Assembly: GCA_024680675.1 (NCBI GenBank)
Contig: JAILBX010000241.1
Coordinates: forward strand, 1 to 42,906
Reading direction: 5' to 3'
Length of the DNA: 42,906 nt
Origin: Lachnospiraceae bacterium
GTDB taxonomy: Bacteria; Bacillota; Clostridia; Lachnospirales; Lachnospiraceae
Position 1 is the first letter of the stretch. Each line of letters starts with the position of its first letter. A program made the position numbers and the translations under genes. This document shows positions 4,092-27,083 of the stretch, one piece after another. The notes under the pieces are model-generated. The model did not search any database and had not been told where the DNA came from. It saw only the letters and a list, made by a program, of their open reading frames with translations.

Positions 4092-6134
4092 TTGAAAAAA
4101 TCAGTATCGGTAGTTTTGGTAATGTTAATATTAGCAGTTTGTTTATTTGGATGTGGAATAGGGACTGATATCAGTACAGAGTCAGATAGTAGGAGTGCGG
4201 ATCAAGCAGATTCTTCTATCCCAAAAAAAGAGAGGGATGATATAGAAAAGGCAGAGGAAGTAAAAACAGCTGAAAATGATAAGAAAGCTGATGGTGCCAT
4301 TTTAGCTGATGATTCGGATATCGAGGTCAAAGCAAATGAAATACTTGCAAAAATGACCATGGAAGAAAAGCTTGCACAGATGATAATCGTTGCATTGCGT
4401 TCAGATCCTCAGAATACTTATCTTACAACAGAGATAACACCTGTTTACAGTGAATTTTTAAGTAAATACGGTTTTGGAGGGGTAATCCTGTATGCCAAAA
4501 ATCTAGTGGATGCTCGACAGACAAGAACTATGATAAATGATATTCAGATAGCAGCACTTGAAGCTAAAAATAATATTCCTATGTTTGTTTGTGTGGATCA
4601 AGAGGGAGGTATGGTAAACCGTATATCTTTTGGAAGTGTGACTTCGGGTTCAATGGCTTTATCTGCAACGGGGGATCTGTCAAATACAGAAAAGAGTGCT
4701 GATATAATAGGACGTGAGCTCTCAGCACTTGGATTCAATGTTGACTTTGCACCGGATTGTGATATTAATTCAAATCCTTCTAATCCTATTATAGGGGTAA
4801 GATCCTTTTCAGATGATCCTTCAATAGTAGCGGAGCATACTAAGGCATTTATAAAGGGTATAACGAAAAACAAGGTAGTTACTTCTTTAAAACATTTTCC
4901 GGGGCATGGGGATGTTGACGTTGACAGTCATTTAGGACTTCCGAAATCTGATATTACATTGGAAGAACTCAGAGAGAGAGAACTTATACCTTTTAAGGCA
5001 GGAATAGAACTGGGAACAGATATGATAATGACGGCACACATCCAGTATCCGAATATTGAAAAGGAAACCTATTACTCAGAAAATGATGAAGAAGATATAT
5101 TCCTTCCGGCAACCCTATCACATAAAATACTTACAGACTTATTGAGGGACGAACTGGGCTATGAAGGAGTAGTAATTACTGATGCCATTGAAATGGGGGC
5201 ACTCACAGACCACTTTGATCGACAGGATGCAGCTATAATGGCAATAAATGCCGGTGCAGATATATTGCTATGTGCACTTGACCTTAATGATAGCGAAGAA
5301 GTAAATACTTTCCCAAAAGAGGAGGATTTTTTCAAGGGTCTGGTTGACAGTGCAAATCAGGGTAAAATAGATGAAGATAGGATAAATGAGTCAGTACTTC
5401 GTATATTAAAGCTTAAGTTGAAAAGAGGGATCATGGAAACAGATCTACTCGAAAATGATGAAGACATGGAGGGAATTCTGGCAGAGGTAGGATCAAAAGA
5501 TAATCGTGAGGTTCAGTGGAATATAACCAAAGGTGCCATAACTCTTTTAAAGAATGATGGTTTGCTGCCTTTTGACGGAAACAATGGGTCTAAAGTATTG
5601 GTGCTCTATCCAAGTGAGAGGAGAAAAAATACATTTGAGTACTCTATAGAAAGGTTAAAAAAAGAAGGTCTTATTAAAAAAGATACGATTTCATTATTGT
5701 GCTATGACGGGATTTCAACTGATAACGAAGCCTTAATTAAAGAAATTACAGATACAGATAAAGTTATTATAATGAATAACAGTACAGAATACATGGGAGA
5801 AGTGACTAAGTTTATTGATATTGCTCATAAAAATGATAAGAAGGTTCTTTTACTAAGCTGCAGTGTACCTTATGATTCAGCATATTATAATGAAGCTGAT
5901 GCTATTCTTTGTGCTTACCAGTATACCGGAGATGCATACGATACAGAAGGGGAGGGACCTTTTAATCTCAATCTGGCAGTCGCTTTTTGTATGGCCTTTG
6001 GAGAATCGGTTCCGGAAGGGACGCTTCCCGTAAATGTGCCCCAATATATTCTTGATAAAGGTGGGGAAGGAGATTTTTCAGATGAAATGCTATATGAGAG
6101 AGGTTTTGGCCTATTTAACTGGGGGGAGAAGTGA
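4092..6134 (+). CDS. Glycoside hydrolase family 3 lipoprotein (beta-N-acetylhexosaminidase-like)
   Basis: TTG start behind AAGGAGG; lipobox 'VCLFGCG'; GH3 motifs 'KHFPGHGDVDVDSHLGLP' and 'VVITDAIEMGAL'. Confidence 0.92.
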   Translation: MKKSVSVVLVMLILAVCLFGCGIGTDISTESDSRSADQADSSIPKKERDDIEKAEEVKTAENDKKADGAILADDSDIEVKANEILAKMTMEEKLAQMIIVALRSDPQNTYLTTEITPVYSEFLSKYGFGGVILYAKNLVDARQTRTMINDIQIAALEAKNNIPMFVCVDQEGGMVNRISFGSVTSGSMALSATGDLSNTEKSADIIGRELSALGFNVDFAPDCDINSNPSNPIIGVRSFSDDPSIVAEHTKAFIKGITKNKVVTSLKHFPGHGDVDVDSHLGLPKSDITLEELRERELIPFKAGIELGTDMIMTAHIQYPNIEKETYYSENDEEDIFLPATLSHKILTDLLRDELGYEGVVITDAIEMGALTDHFDRQDAAIMAINAGADILLCALDLNDSEEVNTFPKEEDFFKGLVDSANQGKIDEDRINESVLRILKLKLKRGIMETDLLENDEDMEGILAEVGSKDNREVQWNITKGAITLLKNDGLLPFDGNNGSKVLVLYPSERRKNTFEYSIERLKKEGLIKKDTISLLCYDGISTDNEALIKEITDTDKVIIMNNSTEYMGEVTKFIDIAHKNDKKVLLLSCSVPYDSAYYNEADAILCAYQYTGDAYDTEGEGPFNLNLAVAFCMAFGESVPEGTLPVNVPQYILDKGGEGDFSDEMLYERGFGLFNWGEK

Positions 6135-6249
6135 CTTTAGAAGGAGAATTTTTGAAGATTTAATTTATAATATCAGATATTTGGGAACACTAGGAAAGGA
6201 GACACCAAGAGCTTGAGAATAGCTTTTAAGGTTTGTAAAGTAGGTAAAA

Positions 6250-6657
6250 ATGGATAAAAAGAGAAGATATATCATCGGTATAGTTGCAATGGTTTTTTGT
6301 GTAATTTGCTTGATAATAGTATATGCTAAGCTTTCACCTAAATCTGAAGCAAAGGGTAACAAGGCATATGAGCTTGAGGTCAATGATGGTAATAAAAGTA
6401 TAAAATATTCAGGTAGCACAGATGCAATGTATTTATCAGAGTTAATGGATGAATTAAAACAGGAAGATTTTACTTATGAGGGAAGTAGTGAGGAATTTGG
6501 GACATACATAACTTCTGTAAATGGTGTAAATGCTAATGAAGGGGAAAAAACTGCCTGGATGATATACGTTAATGGTGAATATGGTATGTATGGGGTTGAT
6601 GCACAATCGGTAAATGATGGAGATCATTTTGAACTAAGATTAGAGAAATATGAATAA
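6250..6657 (+). CDS. DUF4430-type secreted or membrane-anchored protein
   Basis: N-terminal signal anchor; 'GEKTAWMIYVNGEYGMYGVDAQSVNDGDHFELRLEKYE' resembles DUF4430/transcobalamin C-terminal-like domain. Confidence 0.8.
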   Translation: MDKKRRYIIGIVAMVFCVICLIIVYAKLSPKSEAKGNKAYELEVNDGNKSIKYSGSTDAMYLSELMDELKQEDFTYEGSSEEFGTYITSVNGVNANEGEKTAWMIYVNGEYGMYGVDAQSVNDGDHFELRLEKYE

Positions 6658-7159
6658 AGGCAGGTTATCAGTTAAGGAAATAACTTATTTAGGTGCTTCT
6701 CTGGCAATGATCGAAGTTTCTAAATTAGCACTTGATTTTTTACCCAATGTTGAGCTTGTAACTCTGCTTTTTATAGTTTTTACAATCTTTTACGGCAAAA
6801 AAACAATTCTTATAGCATTAGGATTTACTTTTATTGAATGCCTTTTAAAGGGTTTTAATATCTGGTCGATAATGTATCTTTATATCTGGCCTTTATTGAT
6901 AATCATTGTATGTATTGCTCATAAATGTAAAGTGGATTATTTGTTTTACTGTATTTTATCAGCTTTTTTTGGACTCTTTTTCGGAATGTTTTGCTCAATA
7001 CCGTATTTATTTATTGGAGGGTTTAAAATGGCTTTAACATGGTGGGTCGCCGGCATACCTTACGATATACTTCATTGTGTGAGTAATTTTATTGTTTGCC
7101 TTATTCTTTTTAATCCTTTATGTAGGATAATGAAGAAAGTAATGGCTGGTATATTGTGA
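6650..7159 (+). CDS. ECF transporter S-component-like membrane protein
   Basis: Five to six hydrophobic helices, overlaps the upstream stop codon (translational coupling), partner of a DUF4430 gene. Confidence 0.75.
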   Translation: MNKGRLSVKEITYLGASLAMIEVSKLALDFLPNVELVTLLFIVFTIFYGKKTILIALGFTFIECLLKGFNIWSIMYLYIWPLLIIIVCIAHKCKVDYLFYCILSAFFGLFFGMFCSIPYLFIGGFKMALTWWVAGIPYDILHCVSNFIVCLILFNPLCRIMKKVMAGIL

Positions 7160-7234
7160 TTTATGGAGCGAATGTACCTAAAGTAAAATAGAGATGCTTA
7201 GTGTAAGTTGTTACCAGAGTTATTCTTTTATACA

Positions 7235-7273
7235 AGGAGGATTTAATAAAGCCTCCTGTAGGGAGGCGTTGAT
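7235..7273 (+). promoter_or_regulatory. Candidate SD-sequestering hairpin with alternative pairing
   Basis: GCCTCC (7251-7256) pairs with GGAGGC (7262-7267), covering the SD; AGGAGG (7235-7240) pairs alternatively with CCTCCT (7252-7257). Confidence 0.45.
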
Positions 7274-8377
7274 ATGAGTATGGCGGACAGATCTAAAAGG
7301 AAATATTATGATTCTCTTCCGGGAATGCTACATCTTTATAAGAAACTTGGGCATGTGGATCATTTTACAGGATATTCGGTCGAAGAACTTAGAGAGTGGC
7401 AAGAGAATGAGAGGAAAGTTCTGAGAAATATTATAGGACTGGACAGGTTGTATTCTGCTCTTGATGATGAAGCTTCCGGGTATTCTTATAGTCCGGATAG
7501 GTGGAAAGAAATGGAAATAGTTTCACCGGAGAAGGGAATAATCAGGAAAAAAGTTATCTTTGAGGTAGATAAATATACTTTTATGCCAATGTATGTGTTA
7601 GAACCTGAAGGGAATTTTTCAAGATTGTATTATGCATTTGCAGGTCATCAGGGAGGCGGAAAAGAATCAGTGGCCGGAGTCAGGGAAATTAAAGAAATTT
7701 CCGAAAAGATAGATTTTTTTAATTATGACTATGGACTTAAGTTGGCACGAAAGGGTTTTACAGTGATTTGTCCGGATCCCAGAGGGTTTGGAGAGAGAAG
7801 AGATGCCTCAGCTCAGGGAGATAATGCTGCGGTACTGAGCTGTAGTTGTCGAAATATAAGTAATATGGCCATACCTCTTGGCCTTTCAGTTATAGGACTT
7901 CTAGCATATGATTACATGAGGCTGACAGATTACCTGGAAGCAAGTGGGAAATATGATATAAGTGAATTGAGCTGTATTGGGTTCTCGGGAGGAGGCATGC
8001 AGACATTATTTCTCTCCGCTGTTGACAGAAGGATCAAAAGGGCTCTTATAAGTGGGTATATGTATGGCGTTAAAGATGCTCTTTTGCTATTGAATAATAA
8101 TTGCAATTGTAATTACGTACCTGGGCTATGGGAGCATTTTGATATGGGCGATATTGGTGCCTTGCTGGCTCCGATTCCCCTTGTGATCCAGTCCTGTAGA
8201 GATGATCATTTAAATGGCGAAAGAGGGCTGGAAAATGTTTATGAGCAGCTGGAAATAATAAAAAAAGCTTATAAGCTTATGAAAGCAGAAAAAATGCTTA
8301 TACATGATATCAGACCGGGAGGTCATCATTTTCACGATGAAATATTGACAGCTGATTTACTTAGCGACAAGGGATGA
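7274..8377 (+). CDS. Alpha/beta hydrolase (dienelactone hydrolase/acetyl-xylan esterase-like)
   Basis: 'YAFAGHQGGGKES', 'GFTVICPDPRGFGERRD', nucleophile elbow 'GFSGGG', C-terminal 'GGHHFHDE'. Confidence 0.85.
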   Translation: MSMADRSKRKYYDSLPGMLHLYKKLGHVDHFTGYSVEELREWQENERKVLRNIIGLDRLYSALDDEASGYSYSPDRWKEMEIVSPEKGIIRKKVIFEVDKYTFMPMYVLEPEGNFSRLYYAFAGHQGGGKESVAGVREIKEISEKIDFFNYDYGLKLARKGFTVICPDPRGFGERRDASAQGDNAAVLSCSCRNISNMAIPLGLSVIGLLAYDYMRLTDYLEASGKYDISELSCIGFSGGGMQTLFLSAVDRRIKRALISGYMYGVKDALLLLNNNCNCNYVPGLWEHFDMGDIGALLAPIPLVIQSCRDDHLNGERGLENVYEQLEIIKKAYKLMKAEKMLIHDIRPGGHHFHDEILTADLLSDKG

Positions 8378-8412
8378 AAGGGTCTTTTCCTGGCAAAAAT
8401 TATAATTAAAGG

Positions 8413-8841
8413 ATGAAGGTATTCTATATGTGGCTTATATTTGCAATTTTATCATCCGTATTTGCGGCGCTTACATCTATTCTTGCAAAGATCGGTATTG
8501 AGGATGTAAATTCTAATTTGGCTACCGCAATACGTACAGCTGTTGTTTTGGTAATGTCCTGGATCATAGTTTTTTTTACAAATGCACATAAGGGAATAGG
8601 GGAGATTGGACAGAAAAGTTGGATTTTTTTGATCTTGTCAGGACTTGCAACAGGAGTATCCTGGTTATGTTACTATAAGGCACTTCAGATGGGAGAAGCA
8701 TCAAAGGTAGTGCCCATTGATAAGTTGAGTGTGGTGATAACCTTAGTTTTAGCATTTGTTTTTTTGCATGAGCAGTTTACCCTAAAATCTGTTTTAGGTT
8801 GCATTATGATCGGAACAGGTACTTTACTTATGGTTTTATAA
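8413..8841 (+). CDS. Small EamA/DMT-family transporter
   Basis: 142 aa with hydrophobic helices; 'SGLATGVSWLCYYKALQMGEASKVVPIDKLSVVITLVLAFVFLHEQ' is typical of EamA. Confidence 0.9.
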   Translation: MKVFYMWLIFAILSSVFAALTSILAKIGIEDVNSNLATAIRTAVVLVMSWIIVFFTNAHKGIGEIGQKSWIFLILSGLATGVSWLCYYKALQMGEASKVVPIDKLSVVITLVLAFVFLHEQFTLKSVLGCIMIGTGTLLMVL

Positions 8842-8930: not shown

Positions 8931-8940
8931 TGTGTTATGG

Positions 8941-9010
8941 AAAGGGGAATGATGTCTCCCTTAGCATGTTTGCTTAAACCGCTTGTAAGGCTGATGACTT
9001 CTGCAGTTTT
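8941..9010 (+). ncRNA. Fluoride riboswitch (crcB motif) aptamer
   Basis: GGGGAAUGAUGUCUCCC ... UUAAACCGCUUGUAAGGCUGAUGACUUCUGC matches the remembered crcB-motif layout (GG.GAUG..GU..CC; AAACCGC; GGCUGAUGRC..CU.C). Confidence 0.75.
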
Positions 9011-10227: not shown

Positions 10228-10424
10228 TATTGTTTTTACTTTAAGTTTATAAAAATATAAGGCCAAAGCAGCTTATGTTGTTACTATTCAATGAACTTTT
10301 GCAAAGATAGTTCTTTTGTCCGGGCTTGGATATTGCGGCTGTTGCAAAGCATTCGGTAATAAGGTATGCTTATAAAGCAGCTTTGATTGCAGAAAAAAAT
10401 TTAGCTGTTTTTAGAAGGGGTAAT

Positions 10425-11312
10425 ATGGATTTTATTATTTTTGCATTTATTATGGCCGGAGCCATATTAATGATCGTAAATATTATAAGATATCTTAAAT
10501 TTATAAGATCAACTCAGGATGTTCTTTCGTCGGGAAGTTCACGTGACAAAATGTGGATATATACAGCCTTGATTTTATTGATCTTTTTTTTGTTAGGGTA
10601 TCTTTTTATTGGTTTTTTTTCAAATCCCAGCTTTATTATGGCCATGGTTTTGTTTTGGGGAAGTGTTTTTGTTGCTATTGTTTTAACCCTTATTTTCAAC
10701 CTGTTGGACACAGCAAAAGAGAGAAGTATAGATATAGCAAAAGTTCTTATAGGCGTCATTGATAAAAGAGATCCTAACCTTAACGGTCATAGTAGACAGG
10801 TTCAAGATGTAACAATGCTTTTGTACAATGCTTTACCTCACAATATAAGAAATGATATTAATCCTATAAGTCTGCAGTATGCAGCACTTATGCATGATGT
10901 AGGTAAGCTTGGTATACCCGAATCAATTTTAAATAAGCCTGCAAAGCTGGATCCCGAAGAATGGGAGATAATGAGAACTCATCCAAAGCTTGGGGTCGAT
11001 TTATTAAGATCTCTAAATACTTTTGATGAGATTTCAGATTGGATATTATATCATCATGAAAGGATTGATGGAAATGGTTATTATAAGATAAAAGCAGAAG
11101 ATATACCGCTTCCATCTAAAATAATTGCTGTTGCGGATACATATTCGGCTATCACTATGCGAAGATCTTATAAAGAGCCAAGATTACATGAAGATGCTAT
11201 AGATATCATAACAGAGGTCGCCGGCACACAACTTGATAGGGAATTGGTGGATATTTTTATTACTATTCCTAAGGAAAATCTGGTTGCTACTTTGCCCGAG
11301 TCCTGTATGTAA
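10425..11312 (+). CDS. Membrane HD-GYP-like HD domain protein
   Basis: Start taken as ATG 10425 with SD AGAAGGGG; TM helices then 'LMHDVGKLGIP' and 'HHERIDGNGYYKI' (GYY instead of GYP). Confidence 0.85.
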   Translation: MDFIIFAFIMAGAILMIVNIIRYLKFIRSTQDVLSSGSSRDKMWIYTALILLIFFLLGYLFIGFFSNPSFIMAMVLFWGSVFVAIVLTLIFNLLDTAKERSIDIAKVLIGVIDKRDPNLNGHSRQVQDVTMLLYNALPHNIRNDINPISLQYAALMHDVGKLGIPESILNKPAKLDPEEWEIMRTHPKLGVDLLRSLNTFDEISDWILYHHERIDGNGYYKIKAEDIPLPSKIIAVADTYSAITMRRSYKEPRLHEDAIDIITEVAGTQLDRELVDIFITIPKENLVATLPESCM

Positions 11313-13701: not shown

Positions 13702-15405
13702 ATGGAAGATTTATTAGGGACAAATAATGGGTCTGTTTTGGAATATAATTGGAAAAAGGTAAATTCATTTCTTGAAGAAATGCGTCCATTGTTCGAGATT
13801 GTGCGTTTAGTTGATCCTCAGGAGTGCAGGGAAATTCAGATAAGTAAAAAGGGGATGATAGATTTTGGGAATAAGTGTTATTCTCTTTGGCATTCGGATC
13901 ATAGATGTGCCAACTGTACAAGTCTTATAGCTTGTAGAACAATGACAAAAAGAAATCGTTTCGAATATTTCGAGGGTACAAAATATCAAATACAGTCTGT
14001 TCCGGTGTTGGTGGAATTGGCGGATGCAACAAAATATCGTTGTAATATGGAGATGATAAACTACGGTCCGATTCTTGACAAAGTAGATAGTTATAAAAAA
14101 GCTGCTGATCCGGTAGAAACAACCGGATACATATCAACTCACGATAATCTGACAGGGGTATTGAATTGGGAAGGTTTTTGCCAGCAGGCTAGAGAATTAC
14201 TGAACAGCAACCCTAATGAAGACTGGATAATAATATCAACTAACATTCATAATTTTAAACTGGTCAATAATCTGTTTGGGATAGAAAAAGGTGATGGGCT
14301 TCTTATAAGCATTGGTTCGATTTTTTCTGAAATGAGCGGGGAACATTCTTGCGTCGGAAGAGTTAGTGGAGATAAATTTACCATCTTTATGACTTATAGG
14401 GATGATATAGAAGCAGTGCTTAAGAAGTGTGTCAATAAAATTAAGGGTCTTATAAAAGGCGCTGCTTACCGATTAAATCTCAGTATAGGTATATACAAAA
14501 TAAAGTCTACGGATATAGCCATATCCATAATGTATGATCGTGCATATATGGCCCTGCAGACTATACGAAATAATCATGAAAAGGTAATAGCTTGGTTTGA
14601 TGATGATTTACTGAAAACAGCTCTGCATGAACAGGAAGTAATAAGTGATTTTGAAGATAATTTGAAAAGCGGACAGTTTGTTATTTACTTACAACCTCAG
14701 ATAAATATCGAAAATAAGATTGTTGGTGCAGAATGTCTGGTTCGTTGGATACTTCCTAATGGAAAAATGGTTCCTCCTTTTGAATTTATAGGAATTCTTG
14801 AAAAATCTGATTTGATTGCTTCTCTGGATCGATATGTTTGGGAGCTTGCTGCAAGGCAGTTGGATCAATGGAAAAATACTGAATTTGAAGATCTTTATCT
14901 TTCAATAAATGTATCACCTTTGGATTTTTATTATATAGATGTTCCATCAGTTATTATTGATATCTGTGATAAGTATGATATTCCATATGAAAAGCTTCAT
15001 GTAGAGATAACAGAGACTGCTGTAGCCGATGAAGCAATTAACAATAATAAGGTAATCGATCAAATGCAAGAGAAGGGTTTTTTGATAGAAATTGACGATT
15101 TTGGAAAGGGCTCCTCTTCATTAAGTCTTTTGAAGGATCTAAAGGCGGATGTTCTTAAGATCGATATGGGATTTTTACGTAAAAGCGAAAATACAGAAAG
15201 AGGAAATGTTATTCTCAAAGCTGTGATAGATATGGCAAAAAGTCTCAAAATGGAAATAATAACTGAGGGTGTTGAGACTAGAGAACAGCTTGATAAACTA
15301 ACAGAATTGGGGTGTGGCATCTTTCAGGGATATTATTTCTCAAAGCCTATTCCCGTGGCTGCATTTGAAAACATGATACATGATAATAGTCTGGCTAAGT
15401 CCTGA
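13702..15405 (+). CDS. GGDEF(degenerate)-EAL protein with Cys-rich N-terminal sensor region
   Basis: 'RVSGDKFTIFM' in place of GGDEF; EAL motifs 'GAECLVRW', 'SINVSP', 'VEITET', 'IDDFGKGSSSL', 'LKIDMGFL', 'EGVET', 'FQGYYFSKP'. Confidence 0.92.
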   Translation: MEDLLGTNNGSVLEYNWKKVNSFLEEMRPLFEIVRLVDPQECREIQISKKGMIDFGNKCYSLWHSDHRCANCTSLIACRTMTKRNRFEYFEGTKYQIQSVPVLVELADATKYRCNMEMINYGPILDKVDSYKKAADPVETTGYISTHDNLTGVLNWEGFCQQARELLNSNPNEDWIIISTNIHNFKLVNNLFGIEKGDGLLISIGSIFSEMSGEHSCVGRVSGDKFTIFMTYRDDIEAVLKKCVNKIKGLIKGAAYRLNLSIGIYKIKSTDIAISIMYDRAYMALQTIRNNHEKVIAWFDDDLLKTALHEQEVISDFEDNLKSGQFVIYLQPQINIENKIVGAECLVRWILPNGKMVPPFEFIGILEKSDLIASLDRYVWELAARQLDQWKNTEFEDLYLSINVSPLDFYYIDVPSVIIDICDKYDIPYEKLHVEITETAVADEAINNNKVIDQMQEKGFLIEIDDFGKGSSSLSLLKDLKADVLKIDMGFLRKSENTERGNVILKAVIDMAKSLKMEIITEGVETREQLDKLTELGCGIFQGYYFSKPIPVAAFENMIHDNSLAKS

Positions 15406-24270: not shown

Positions 24271-24482
24271 CTATAAATCCTTTAATAACTAAACAGTTAA
24301 ACACCAAAGTATGATACTATATACCCATCTTTAAGTAGCTGCTTCAAAGATTTTAAAAGCAAAGCTTTTTTATTTATTATAATTATTAAAAGACATACAT
24401 TGTAAAAAGACGATGTCGGGGATAGAATATCTATTTAGAAGCCATTTAATGTATTCCGTTTTAAGACCTTGAGGTAAAGATA

Positions 24483-27083
24483 ATGAGAGAAACAAAAGAA
24501 GGCCTTGTTTATACAAACGAGAAATGTATTGGTTGCAATAAATGTATAAGATCTTGCAGTTGTATTGGTGCAAATGTATCTACTGAAGCTGATGAAAATG
24601 GAAGATCAAAGATTCTCGTAGATGGAAACCTTTGTATCGCCTGTGGAGCCTGTTTTGATGTATGTGAACATAATGCACGTGACTACATAGATGATACTGA
24701 CAGATTTTTTGAAGATCTAAAAAAGGGGGAGGCTATTTCCCTTCTTATAGCACCTTCTTTTCCTGCAAATTACCCTGATAGCTATGAAAAAATCCTGGGA
24801 GGATTAAAAAATCTCGGAGCAAAACAAATATTAAGTGTGTCCTTCGGAGCAGATATAACCACTTGGGGATATGTAAATTACATAGAAAAAAATAATTTTA
24901 CTGGTGGAATATCCCAGCCCTGCCCTGCCGTTGTAGGATATATAGAAAGATATCTTCCGGAATTGATTCCAAATCTCTTTCCGGTACAGAGCCCTGTTAT
25001 GTGTGCTGCTATATATGCAAAAAATGTACTTGGTATTACAGATAAGCTGGCCTTTATAAGTCCATGTATTGCAAAAAAGCTTGAAATAGATGACCCTAAT
25101 AACAAGGGCTTCATCAGCTATAATGTCACATTTGATCATCTCATAAATTATGTTAAAACCAATAATATCTATGGCGAACCTTATAAAGAGGAAATAGAGT
25201 ACGGTCTTGGTTCAATATACCCCATGCCCGGTGGTCTTAAAGAAAATGTCAGATGGCTCCTTGGAGATGATGTATTTATACGTCAGGTTGAAGGAGAGAA
25301 GAGGCTATATAGCTTTCTTGAACACAATAAGAACCTTCTTAAAGATAAAAAAACTCCCTTTCTGTTTGTTGATGCACTAAATTGTGAAAATGGTTGCATC
25401 TGCGGAACAGGAACAGAACCTTCAAAATCTTCAACTGATGAGGCTCTTTATGCCCTTCATGATATCAAAGAAGCAGTAAAAAAGACCAGTCCTGACAGCG
25501 CCTGGTCTAAAAATGCATCTCCAAAAGAGAGACTTAGAAATCTCAATGATCAGTTTTCTCATCTTAAGCTTGAAGATTATCTCAGAAGCTATACGGATAG
25601 ATCAAAACAATGTAGGCTTCGTATTCCTGATGCCGAAGAACTTGAAATGATCTATATTGAAATGAATAAACTTGATGAAAACTCACGCAATATCAACTGC
25701 TCTTGTTGCGGTTATGACAGCTGTAAGGATATGGCAATAGCGATACACAATGGAATAAACCATAAAGATAATTGCATTCATTATCTTAAAGATATGTATA
25801 TAGTAAGAGCCGCAGAAAGTGACATGATGACAGGACTCCCAAATGCTTCAGGCTTCAGAACATTTGTAAATCATCTTAAGACAAACGGACATCCTTCCCT
25901 CTTTAATGCCTTTTATCTCAATCTTCGTAATTTTGGACTTATAAACAGTAAATACGGGAAGCATATTGCAGATGATATTATTATCAAATTTGCCAAGTTA
26001 CTAAAGAAAAAAACTGATGAAGACGAGTGTGTAGGCCGACTTTCCGGAGATAATTTTATTATCATGGTACATAAAGAAAAGACTGATGATATCCTAAAGG
26101 TAACAGAAGGAATAAAATTATCAATGTCCATGGAGAATAAAGAGGAAATAATTACTATACAGGCTACTGCCGGATGTTTTGACATTAATGAGGACGAAGT
26201 TGACAGTGAAGAAATACTTGGAAGATGCTCCACTGCTCTTAACATGGCAAAATATGAAAAACATGTACCTTACGTATTTTCAACATTAGACATGCACTCC
26301 AAAGTGCTGTACCATAAACACATAGCTTCTATATTTGCCGATGCGCTAAAAAATGGAGAGTTCAGACCCTATTATCAACCAAAGGTCAACACAAACACAA
26401 ACACTCTTGCAGGAGCAGAAGCTTTGGTACGTTGGATAAGAGAAGGAAAACTAATATCCCCCGGTGAATTTATACCGGTTCTGGAGATGGACGACAATAT
26501 ATGTATATTGGATTTCTATGTTTTTGAGCAGGTCTGCAAGGATATTCAAAAATGGATAAATGACGGAATAGAACCCGTCAGAATATCTACGAACTTCTCA
26601 AGAAGAAACCTGCTCAATCCGGATTTTTCACGTAAGATCGAGGATATACTCCATAAATATGAAATTCCAAGAGAATATATAGAAGTCGAACTTACTGAAA
26701 CGGTAAGTGAAAAAGAAAACGACAGACTGAGTAATTTTATAAGTGATATGCACGAGGCCGATATAGCTATGGCAATTGATGACTTTGGAACAGGCTATTC
26801 ATCACTTAATCTCCTAAGAGATTTCCCGGCGGATGTCTTGAAGCTTGACAAATCCTTTATAGATGGACACATTGATACTAAAAGAGATAACGTTGTAGTA
26901 TCCAATGTTGCAAAAATGGCCAAGGAACTTGATATGAGTGTAATAACAGAAGGTGTCGAAAGTCAGGAACAGGTGGATTTCCTAAAGAGTATAAATATCA
27001 ATATGGTACAGGGCTTCCTCTTTGATAAGCCTCTGTCAAAGGAAGATTTTGAAAAAAGACTGATTAATAAGAGCTATGATTAA
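24483..27083 (+). CDS. Ferredoxin / [FeFe]-hydrogenase-like sensory domain / Fe-S / degenerate GGDEF / EAL fusion
   Basis: 'CIGCNKCIRSC', 'CIACGACFDVC'; H-cluster motifs 'ISQPCP', 'SPCIAKKLE', 'NCENGCICG'; 'CSCCGYDSCKDMA'; 'RLSGDNF'; EAL 'GAEALVRW', 'IDDFGTGYSSL', 'LKLDKSF', 'EGVES'. Confidence 0.93.
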   Translation: MRETKEGLVYTNEKCIGCNKCIRSCSCIGANVSTEADENGRSKILVDGNLCIACGACFDVCEHNARDYIDDTDRFFEDLKKGEAISLLIAPSFPANYPDSYEKILGGLKNLGAKQILSVSFGADITTWGYVNYIEKNNFTGGISQPCPAVVGYIERYLPELIPNLFPVQSPVMCAAIYAKNVLGITDKLAFISPCIAKKLEIDDPNNKGFISYNVTFDHLINYVKTNNIYGEPYKEEIEYGLGSIYPMPGGLKENVRWLLGDDVFIRQVEGEKRLYSFLEHNKNLLKDKKTPFLFVDALNCENGCICGTGTEPSKSSTDEALYALHDIKEAVKKTSPDSAWSKNASPKERLRNLNDQFSHLKLEDYLRSYTDRSKQCRLRIPDAEELEMIYIEMNKLDENSRNINCSCCGYDSCKDMAIAIHNGINHKDNCIHYLKDMYIVRAAESDMMTGLPNASGFRTFVNHLKTNGHPSLFNAFYLNLRNFGLINSKYGKHIADDIIIKFAKLLKKKTDEDECVGRLSGDNFIIMVHKEKTDDILKVTEGIKLSMSMENKEEIITIQATAGCFDINEDEVDSEEILGRCSTALNMAKYEKHVPYVFSTLDMHSKVLYHKHIASIFADALKNGEFRPYYQPKVNTNTNTLAGAEALVRWIREGKLISPGEFIPVLEMDDNICILDFYVFEQVCKDIQKWINDGIEPVRISTNFSRRNLLNPDFSRKIEDILHKYEIPREYIEVELTETVSEKENDRLSNFISDMHEADIAMAIDDFGTGYSSLNLLRDFPADVLKLDKSFIDGHIDTKRDNVVVSNVAKMAKELDMSVITEGVESQEQVDFLKSININMVQGFLFDKPLSKEDFEKRLINKSYD

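Follow-up and report, generated by a model that had tools for sequence, protein, structure and literature searches.

A predicted one-protein sensor joining an [FeFe]-hydrogenase-like module to c-di-GMP hydrolysis in rumen Lachnospiraceae

The main lifestyle switch of bacteria is c-di-GMP. Sensory [FeFe]-hydrogenases, on the other side, continue to bear the label putative, since direct physiological evidence of their role is scarce. A gene of a Lachnospiraceae bacterium brings the two subjects together and raises the question of what a hydrogenase-like domain reads when it is fused to an enzyme of c-di-GMP turnover, and whether it carries the complete H-cluster when doing so. The gene lies in a window of 42,906 nucleotides (the whole stretch of DNA analysed), and the original prediction took its product for an H2 or redox sensor that controls c-di-GMP breakdown within a single protein.

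The open reading frame at positions 24483–27083 of the window is a complete fusion gene of 866 amino acids with exact coordinates; like all features of the gene given below, it is on the + strand. Direct reading of the sequence places a Shine-Dalgarno-like GAGGT (24471–24475) 7 nt 5' of the ATG. The protein consists, in order, of two ferredoxin motifs, an [FeFe]-hydrogenase H-domain, a CX2CX4CX16C FeS domain, a degenerate GGDEF domain and an EAL domain, which is the domain string, motifs included, that had been predicted. In the Pfam search, Fer4_7 covers residues 14–65 (24522–24677; E 1.4e-6), with the [4Fe-4S] cysteines 15/18/21/25 and 51/54/57/61. Homology to hydrogenases is clear from Fe_hyd_lg_C (PF02906), which matches residues 88–308 (24744–25406) at E 1.4e-28 and 100.6 bits against a cut-off of 22.1. 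The C-terminal [4Fe-4S] domain (25692–25778; Cys 406/409/414/431) is PF04060-like; its match (residues 404–432, E 8e-5, 22.7 bits) falls 0.3 under the cut-off, which is exceeded in many relatives. GGDEF (residues 445–592, 25815–26258) and EAL (residues 618–850, 26334–27032) match at E 1e-18 and E 1e-59, respectively, and the scan gave no PAS domain. FeFe_hydrog_B1 and c-di-GMP phosphodiesterases of NCBIfam matched in part, with no equivalog above its own cut-off among the matches listed.

An AlphaFold2 model of the protein has a mean pLDDT of 89.1 and a pTM of 0.63, so that the individual domains are modelled with confidence and their arrangement is not. Searched with Foldseek, the model finds solved GGDEF-EAL structures first (4rnh, E 5e-32) and then [FeFe]-hydrogenases (8a6t, E 1e-18). 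The observed fusion architecture is far beyond chance. A chance or pseudogene reading frame is ruled out by the complete frame, the model, the conservation of the EAL residues and low dN/dS; a unique chimera or an assembly artefact is ruled out by independent relatives that share the full architecture at 78%, 73% and 72% identity in the module.

Judged by its loops, the H-domain is of the sensory type, with the relay cysteine lost and four cubane ligands (C147, C195, C301 and C305) present. Residues are compared here in CpI numbering, which was assigned via motif alignment and not from coordinates. The alignment of the L1 loop (ISQPCP, I143-S-Q-P-C147-P; 24909–24926) gives Pro146 at the relay position C299 next to the retained ligand Cys147, which upholds the predicted change from Cys to Pro. 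In the L2 loop (SPCIAKKLE, S193-P-C195-I-A-K198-K-L-E201; 25059–25085), M353 is replaced by S193, while K358 (K198) and E361 are retained; in the L3 loop (NCENGCICG, N300-C301-E-N-G-C305; 25380–25406), M497 is replaced by L299 and both Cys ligands are kept. F417 has become Tyr. The residues predicted to line the [2Fe] pocket (A230, P231, P324, P354, K358 and C503) are retained in the fusion protein and its clade. About 10% of the sensory enzymes in HydDB have Pro at the relay (PMC10055695). The pair S193/L299 is the same second-sphere Ser/Leu pair (353/497) as in TamHydS, an active enzyme that incorporates [2Fe] (PMC8163306; PMC11803613).

The retention of the H-cluster ligands that had been claimed for this protein extends to its relatives. 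Across 88 aligned modules, the four H-site ligands and the CX2CX4CX16C cysteines are present in 88/88, as are all 16 Fe-S cysteines apart from the first four, which are found in 87/88, one sequence being truncated. An extra cysteine specific to the sensor-module family, Cys174 (25002–25004; about CpI 327), is retained in 85 of the 88 modules; in the sequence it lies near the presumed diiron pocket, and the aligned relatives of PAS type and of group-D-like type do not show it. Purifying selection on the module is strong, with dN/dS of 0.04–0.18 where measurable, several pairs being saturated.

On the output side, the twelve EAL active-site residues (E646, R650, N704, E736, E739, D766, D767, K787, D789, E823, E826 and Q843) are identical in 19 EAL-type proteins, that is, the fusion protein and 18 others, and the loop 6 stretch DDFG[TS]GYSS is unchanged in all of them. 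The best PDB sequence match of the EAL domain is MorA (E 4e-51), whose catalytic residues it shares. In 14 of the 19 the GGDEF motif has degenerated, and in the fusion protein it reads SGDNF (residues 521–525), as noted earlier, in place of the GG[DE]EF A-site of diguanylate cyclases. This combination of identical EAL residues and a degenerate GGDEF motif makes c-di-GMP hydrolysis the most likely output. A bifunctional or c-di-GMP-synthesising enzyme could be imagined from the relatives with an intact GGDEF motif (L056, L067–L070), but SGDNF lacks the catalytic Glu and the EAL domain is fully intact, so that we regard synthesis as extremely improbable. A possible cyclase counterpart by its motifs is L078 (4680–7046, −), in which the module is fused to GGDEF with an intact GGEEF and in which L1 and K358 are altered.

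How does this protein relate to known systems? HydDB lists [FeFe] groups C1 (kinase), C2 (chemotaxis) and C3 (phosphatase), all putative, together with a diguanylate-cyclase-linked [NiFe] group 2c, and its listing holds no c-di-GMP-linked [FeFe] type (PMC5037454). Group C has been proposed as the H2 sensor of Ruminococcus albus in a rumen study (PMC6776011). No description of an [FeFe] sensor fused to EAL or otherwise linked to c-di-GMP was found in the open-licence literature searched. The PF02906 H-domain and the N-terminal Fer4 pair are common to C1/C2 and the fusion protein; C1/C2 are linked to HK or MCP, exactly as in the close relatives, whereas the fusion protein carries GGDEF-EAL. TmHydS (group C, M2f) resembles it in the two Fer4 motifs, H-domain, CX2CX4CX16C, lost relay Cys and Tyr at the F417 position, but has PAS after FeS and Ser/Gly at M497/M353 where the fusion protein has no PAS and Leu/Ser. 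TamHydS (group D, M2e) shares the Leu and Ser, the CX2CX4CX16C motif and the lack of PAS; its relay position is Ala rather than Pro, and no fused output has been described for group D. Two proteins of 440 aa, assigned to group D by architecture alone, form a separate branch in a tree that was built without the reference TamHydS. For [NiFe] group 2c, H2 sensing into c-di-GMP has also been proposed, with an unrelated metal site and a cyclase instead of a phosphodiesterase. The same output module is found in sensor-GGDEF-EAL phosphodiesterases of the DosP and MorA type; the N-terminal sensor of DosP controls its EAL domain and senses O2 via haem-PAS, whereas the input here is a hydrogenase-like Fe-S module. 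With the two N-terminal [4Fe-4S] motifs and CX2CX4CX16C of group C (M2f), the protein is filed as one that would work like a group C sensor; because it has neither the M2f-type PAS nor an HK or MCP link, its architecture sets it outside M2f and C1/C2. Known group C types are linked to kinase, chemotaxis and phosphatase, and new here, by the literature searched, is an [FeFe]-hydrogenase-like sensor with a GGDEF-EAL c-di-GMP output.

The fusion protein had first been described as a single oddity. It is instead a branch of a family whose members share the input module and differ in output, which can be MCP, HK(-REC-Hpt), MCP-REC, GGDEF or GGDEF-EAL, chemotaxis (MCP) being the commonest. The 59 modules in the 37 genomes of its genus, a rumen Lachnospiraceae genus, comprise 25 MCP, 24 EAL, 9 HK and one without a detected output, and the EAL form occurs in 21 of these genomes. 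At class level, the module was found in 37 of 388 genomes (E <= 1e-60), with best matches mostly of MCP output, and no EAL fusion outside the genus was seen among the matches examined; most of the relatives that have a name are Lachnospiraceae of the rumen and gut. Close relatives with MCP or HK outputs are about 40–70% identical in the module. In a tree made by a quick method with SH-aLRT support only and long branches flagged, the fusion protein falls in an 18-row EAL+HK clade (97 SH-aLRT) nested among MCP forms, so the EAL output most likely arose by domain exchange, for which the tree shows two or three changes.

A second, divergent EAL clade (L079–L084) forms a separate long branch of unsure placement. 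In it K358, the CN-binding Lys, is replaced by Ile or Met, all cluster cysteines are retained and C174 is kept in the members aligned, and if any sensor of the family does without [2Fe], these proteins are the most promising candidates. Their genes lie directly 3' of a FIST-domain gene in a conserved order (e.g., L080: 4861–5982, then 6001–8574). PAS-bearing relatives form their own clade, and distant PAS-type relatives show PAS and sigma-54 activator domains as further outputs. In L109, L110 and L111, a sigma-54 activator that includes HTH is joined to the H-domain and FeS; L109 and L111 also have PAS, and all three are putative one-protein H2/redox transcription regulators.

The surroundings of the fusion gene in the window are unrelated housekeeping and carbohydrate genes. 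Inspection of the neighbours confirmed that no hydrogenase structural or maturation gene adjoins it, and no regulatory partner gene was seen next to it; no conserved neighbourhood common to the gene and its clade was found. With 12 EAL and about 30 GGDEF matches in its own genome, c-di-GMP signalling there is extensive. The window itself contains a second GGDEF-EAL protein (13702–15405, +) and two HD_5 (HD-GYP-like) proteins (45–1745, −, and 10326–11312, +), which are likely further c-di-GMP turnover proteins. There is also a fluoride riboswitch (RF01734, 45.3 bits) at 8936–9010 (+).

A complete H-cluster would call for the maturases HydE, HydF and HydG, and all three are present in the own genome, with HydF and HydG adjoining on contig C235 and HydE on C207; a single TSCCP-type hydrogenase of 490 aa is on C276. 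Across the genus the check turned out otherwise. One and the same set of 16 among the 37 genomes lacks all three maturases, whose genes are often linked; several of these genomes are 95–99% complete (thresholds: HydE 1e-20, HydF 1e-40, and for HydG 1e-10 in nine genomes of the set and 1e-60 in the others). Among these are G002, G004, G010, G016, G017 and G029. The sensor-bearing genome G373, which is 99% complete in one contig, likewise has no over-cut-off match to HydE, HydF or HydG, and searches for HydE and HydG found neither in the isolates YSD2013 and AC2028. Masking of some stretches, or maturases too divergent to reach these thresholds, might conceivably account for absences; gaps in assembled genomes are unlikely as their sole cause, given the identical 16 genomes, the completeness of several and the two cultured isolates.

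Foremost among the new results, the presence of the sensor family is not linked to that of HydEFG. Sensors occur in 14 of 16 maturase-free and 18 of 21 maturase-bearing genomes (Fisher p=1), those in the former include EAL fusions with unchanged pockets, and along the sensor tree there are at least 19 changes in maturase status. There is no association between EAL type and maturases (p=0.32), no difference in pocket residues between the two sets and none in the tip branch lengths of the sensors (p=0.61). K358 is retained in 37 of 46 sensors without maturases and in 36 of 42 with them. The closest EAL relative, L031 (78% identical), comes from G002 (95% complete), which has no HydE, HydF or HydG. 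Catalytic-type HydA with TSCCP and intact L2 and L3 (TSCCPGW, MPCTAKK, EVMACRRGC) also persists in the maturase-free genomes examined (L232, L235, L250 and L251). Lone HydA large-subunit genes are known from butyrivibrio genomes, and their activity has been doubted (PMC4478896). In isolate AC2028, a TSCCP hydrogenase (L194: 4608–6113) lies directly upstream of an MCP-type sensor (6401–8338). The persistence of catalytic-type HydA and sensors without maturases means that either HydEFG-independent maturation exists or both kinds of H-domain use the cubane alone.

What, then, does the module sense? If HydEFG insert [2Fe], oxidation of H2 would reduce the clusters and switch the EAL domain. For such an H2 sensor with a complete H-cluster, to which we give roughly an even chance, speak the maturases of the own genome, the pocket retained throughout the clade and the second sphere shared with [2Fe]-binding TamHydS; it is countered by the replaced proton-transfer residues and by L031's genome and 13 other sensor-bearing genomes that lack the maturases and conserve the pocket equally well. 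Those same genomes, together with G373 and the two isolates, fit a [4Fe-4S]-only redox sensor, in which the H-site would hold a cubane, possibly with Cys174 nearby, and the cue would be a low-potential electron or ferredoxin state and not H2. This possibility, which we rate clearly below an even chance, agrees with the lack of relaxation in sensors without maturases (equal tip branches, all Cys retained) and with the divergent EAL clade that has lost K358 and no cluster Cys. TSCCP HydA persisting in maturase-free genomes, however, hints at HydEFG-independent maturation, and most sensors keep K358 even where maturases are missing. Loss of the proton-path residues might also suggest a vestigial fusion with the H-domain as a mere structural scaffold, but invariant cluster ligands, low dN/dS and the repeated re-use of the module with different outputs make this very unlikely.

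Overall, we consider it probable that the fusion protein is a one-protein H2-or-redox-sensing c-di-GMP phosphodiesterase, and we infer the signal, its direction and the activity as follows. A soluble transducer would read H2 or a low-potential redox state through a group-C-like sensory module (ferredoxin pair, relay-less H-domain and C-terminal [4Fe-4S]); a linker helix would pass the state to the degenerate GGDEF domain, probably dimerising or regulatory, and the active EAL domain would hydrolyse c-di-GMP. The re-use of the module with MCP, HK(-REC-Hpt), GGDEF and GGDEF-EAL, all of them signal outputs, speaks for this explanation. Against it count the sensors that do not track maturases, the lack of an adjacent catalytic or regulatory partner and the finding that the C-terminal cluster of TamHydS is not reduced by H2 (PMC13104023). 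As chemoreceptors are where the input module is found most often, and as its output was swapped to GGDEF-EAL in one rumen Lachnospiraceae genus, the cue that steers chemotaxis in relatives would set c-di-GMP here.

Through this protein, a sensor of hydrogenase type is linked directly to c-di-GMP in anaerobes of the rumen, a setting in which H2 and methane are important. The fusion of sensor and enzyme offers c-di-GMP hydrolysis as an in vitro read-out, which makes a sensory role testable. That sensors and HydEFG do not go together casts doubt on the idea that no sensory H-domain can do without the full H-cluster. We tentatively suggest, at somewhat less than even confidence, that the H-domain of this Clostridia sensor family works without HydEFG, either as a cubane-only redox site or with a HydEFG-independent diiron site that also serves HydA; if true, H-domain sensors of chemotaxis, kinase and c-di-GMP outputs across Clostridia would operate independently of HydEFG.
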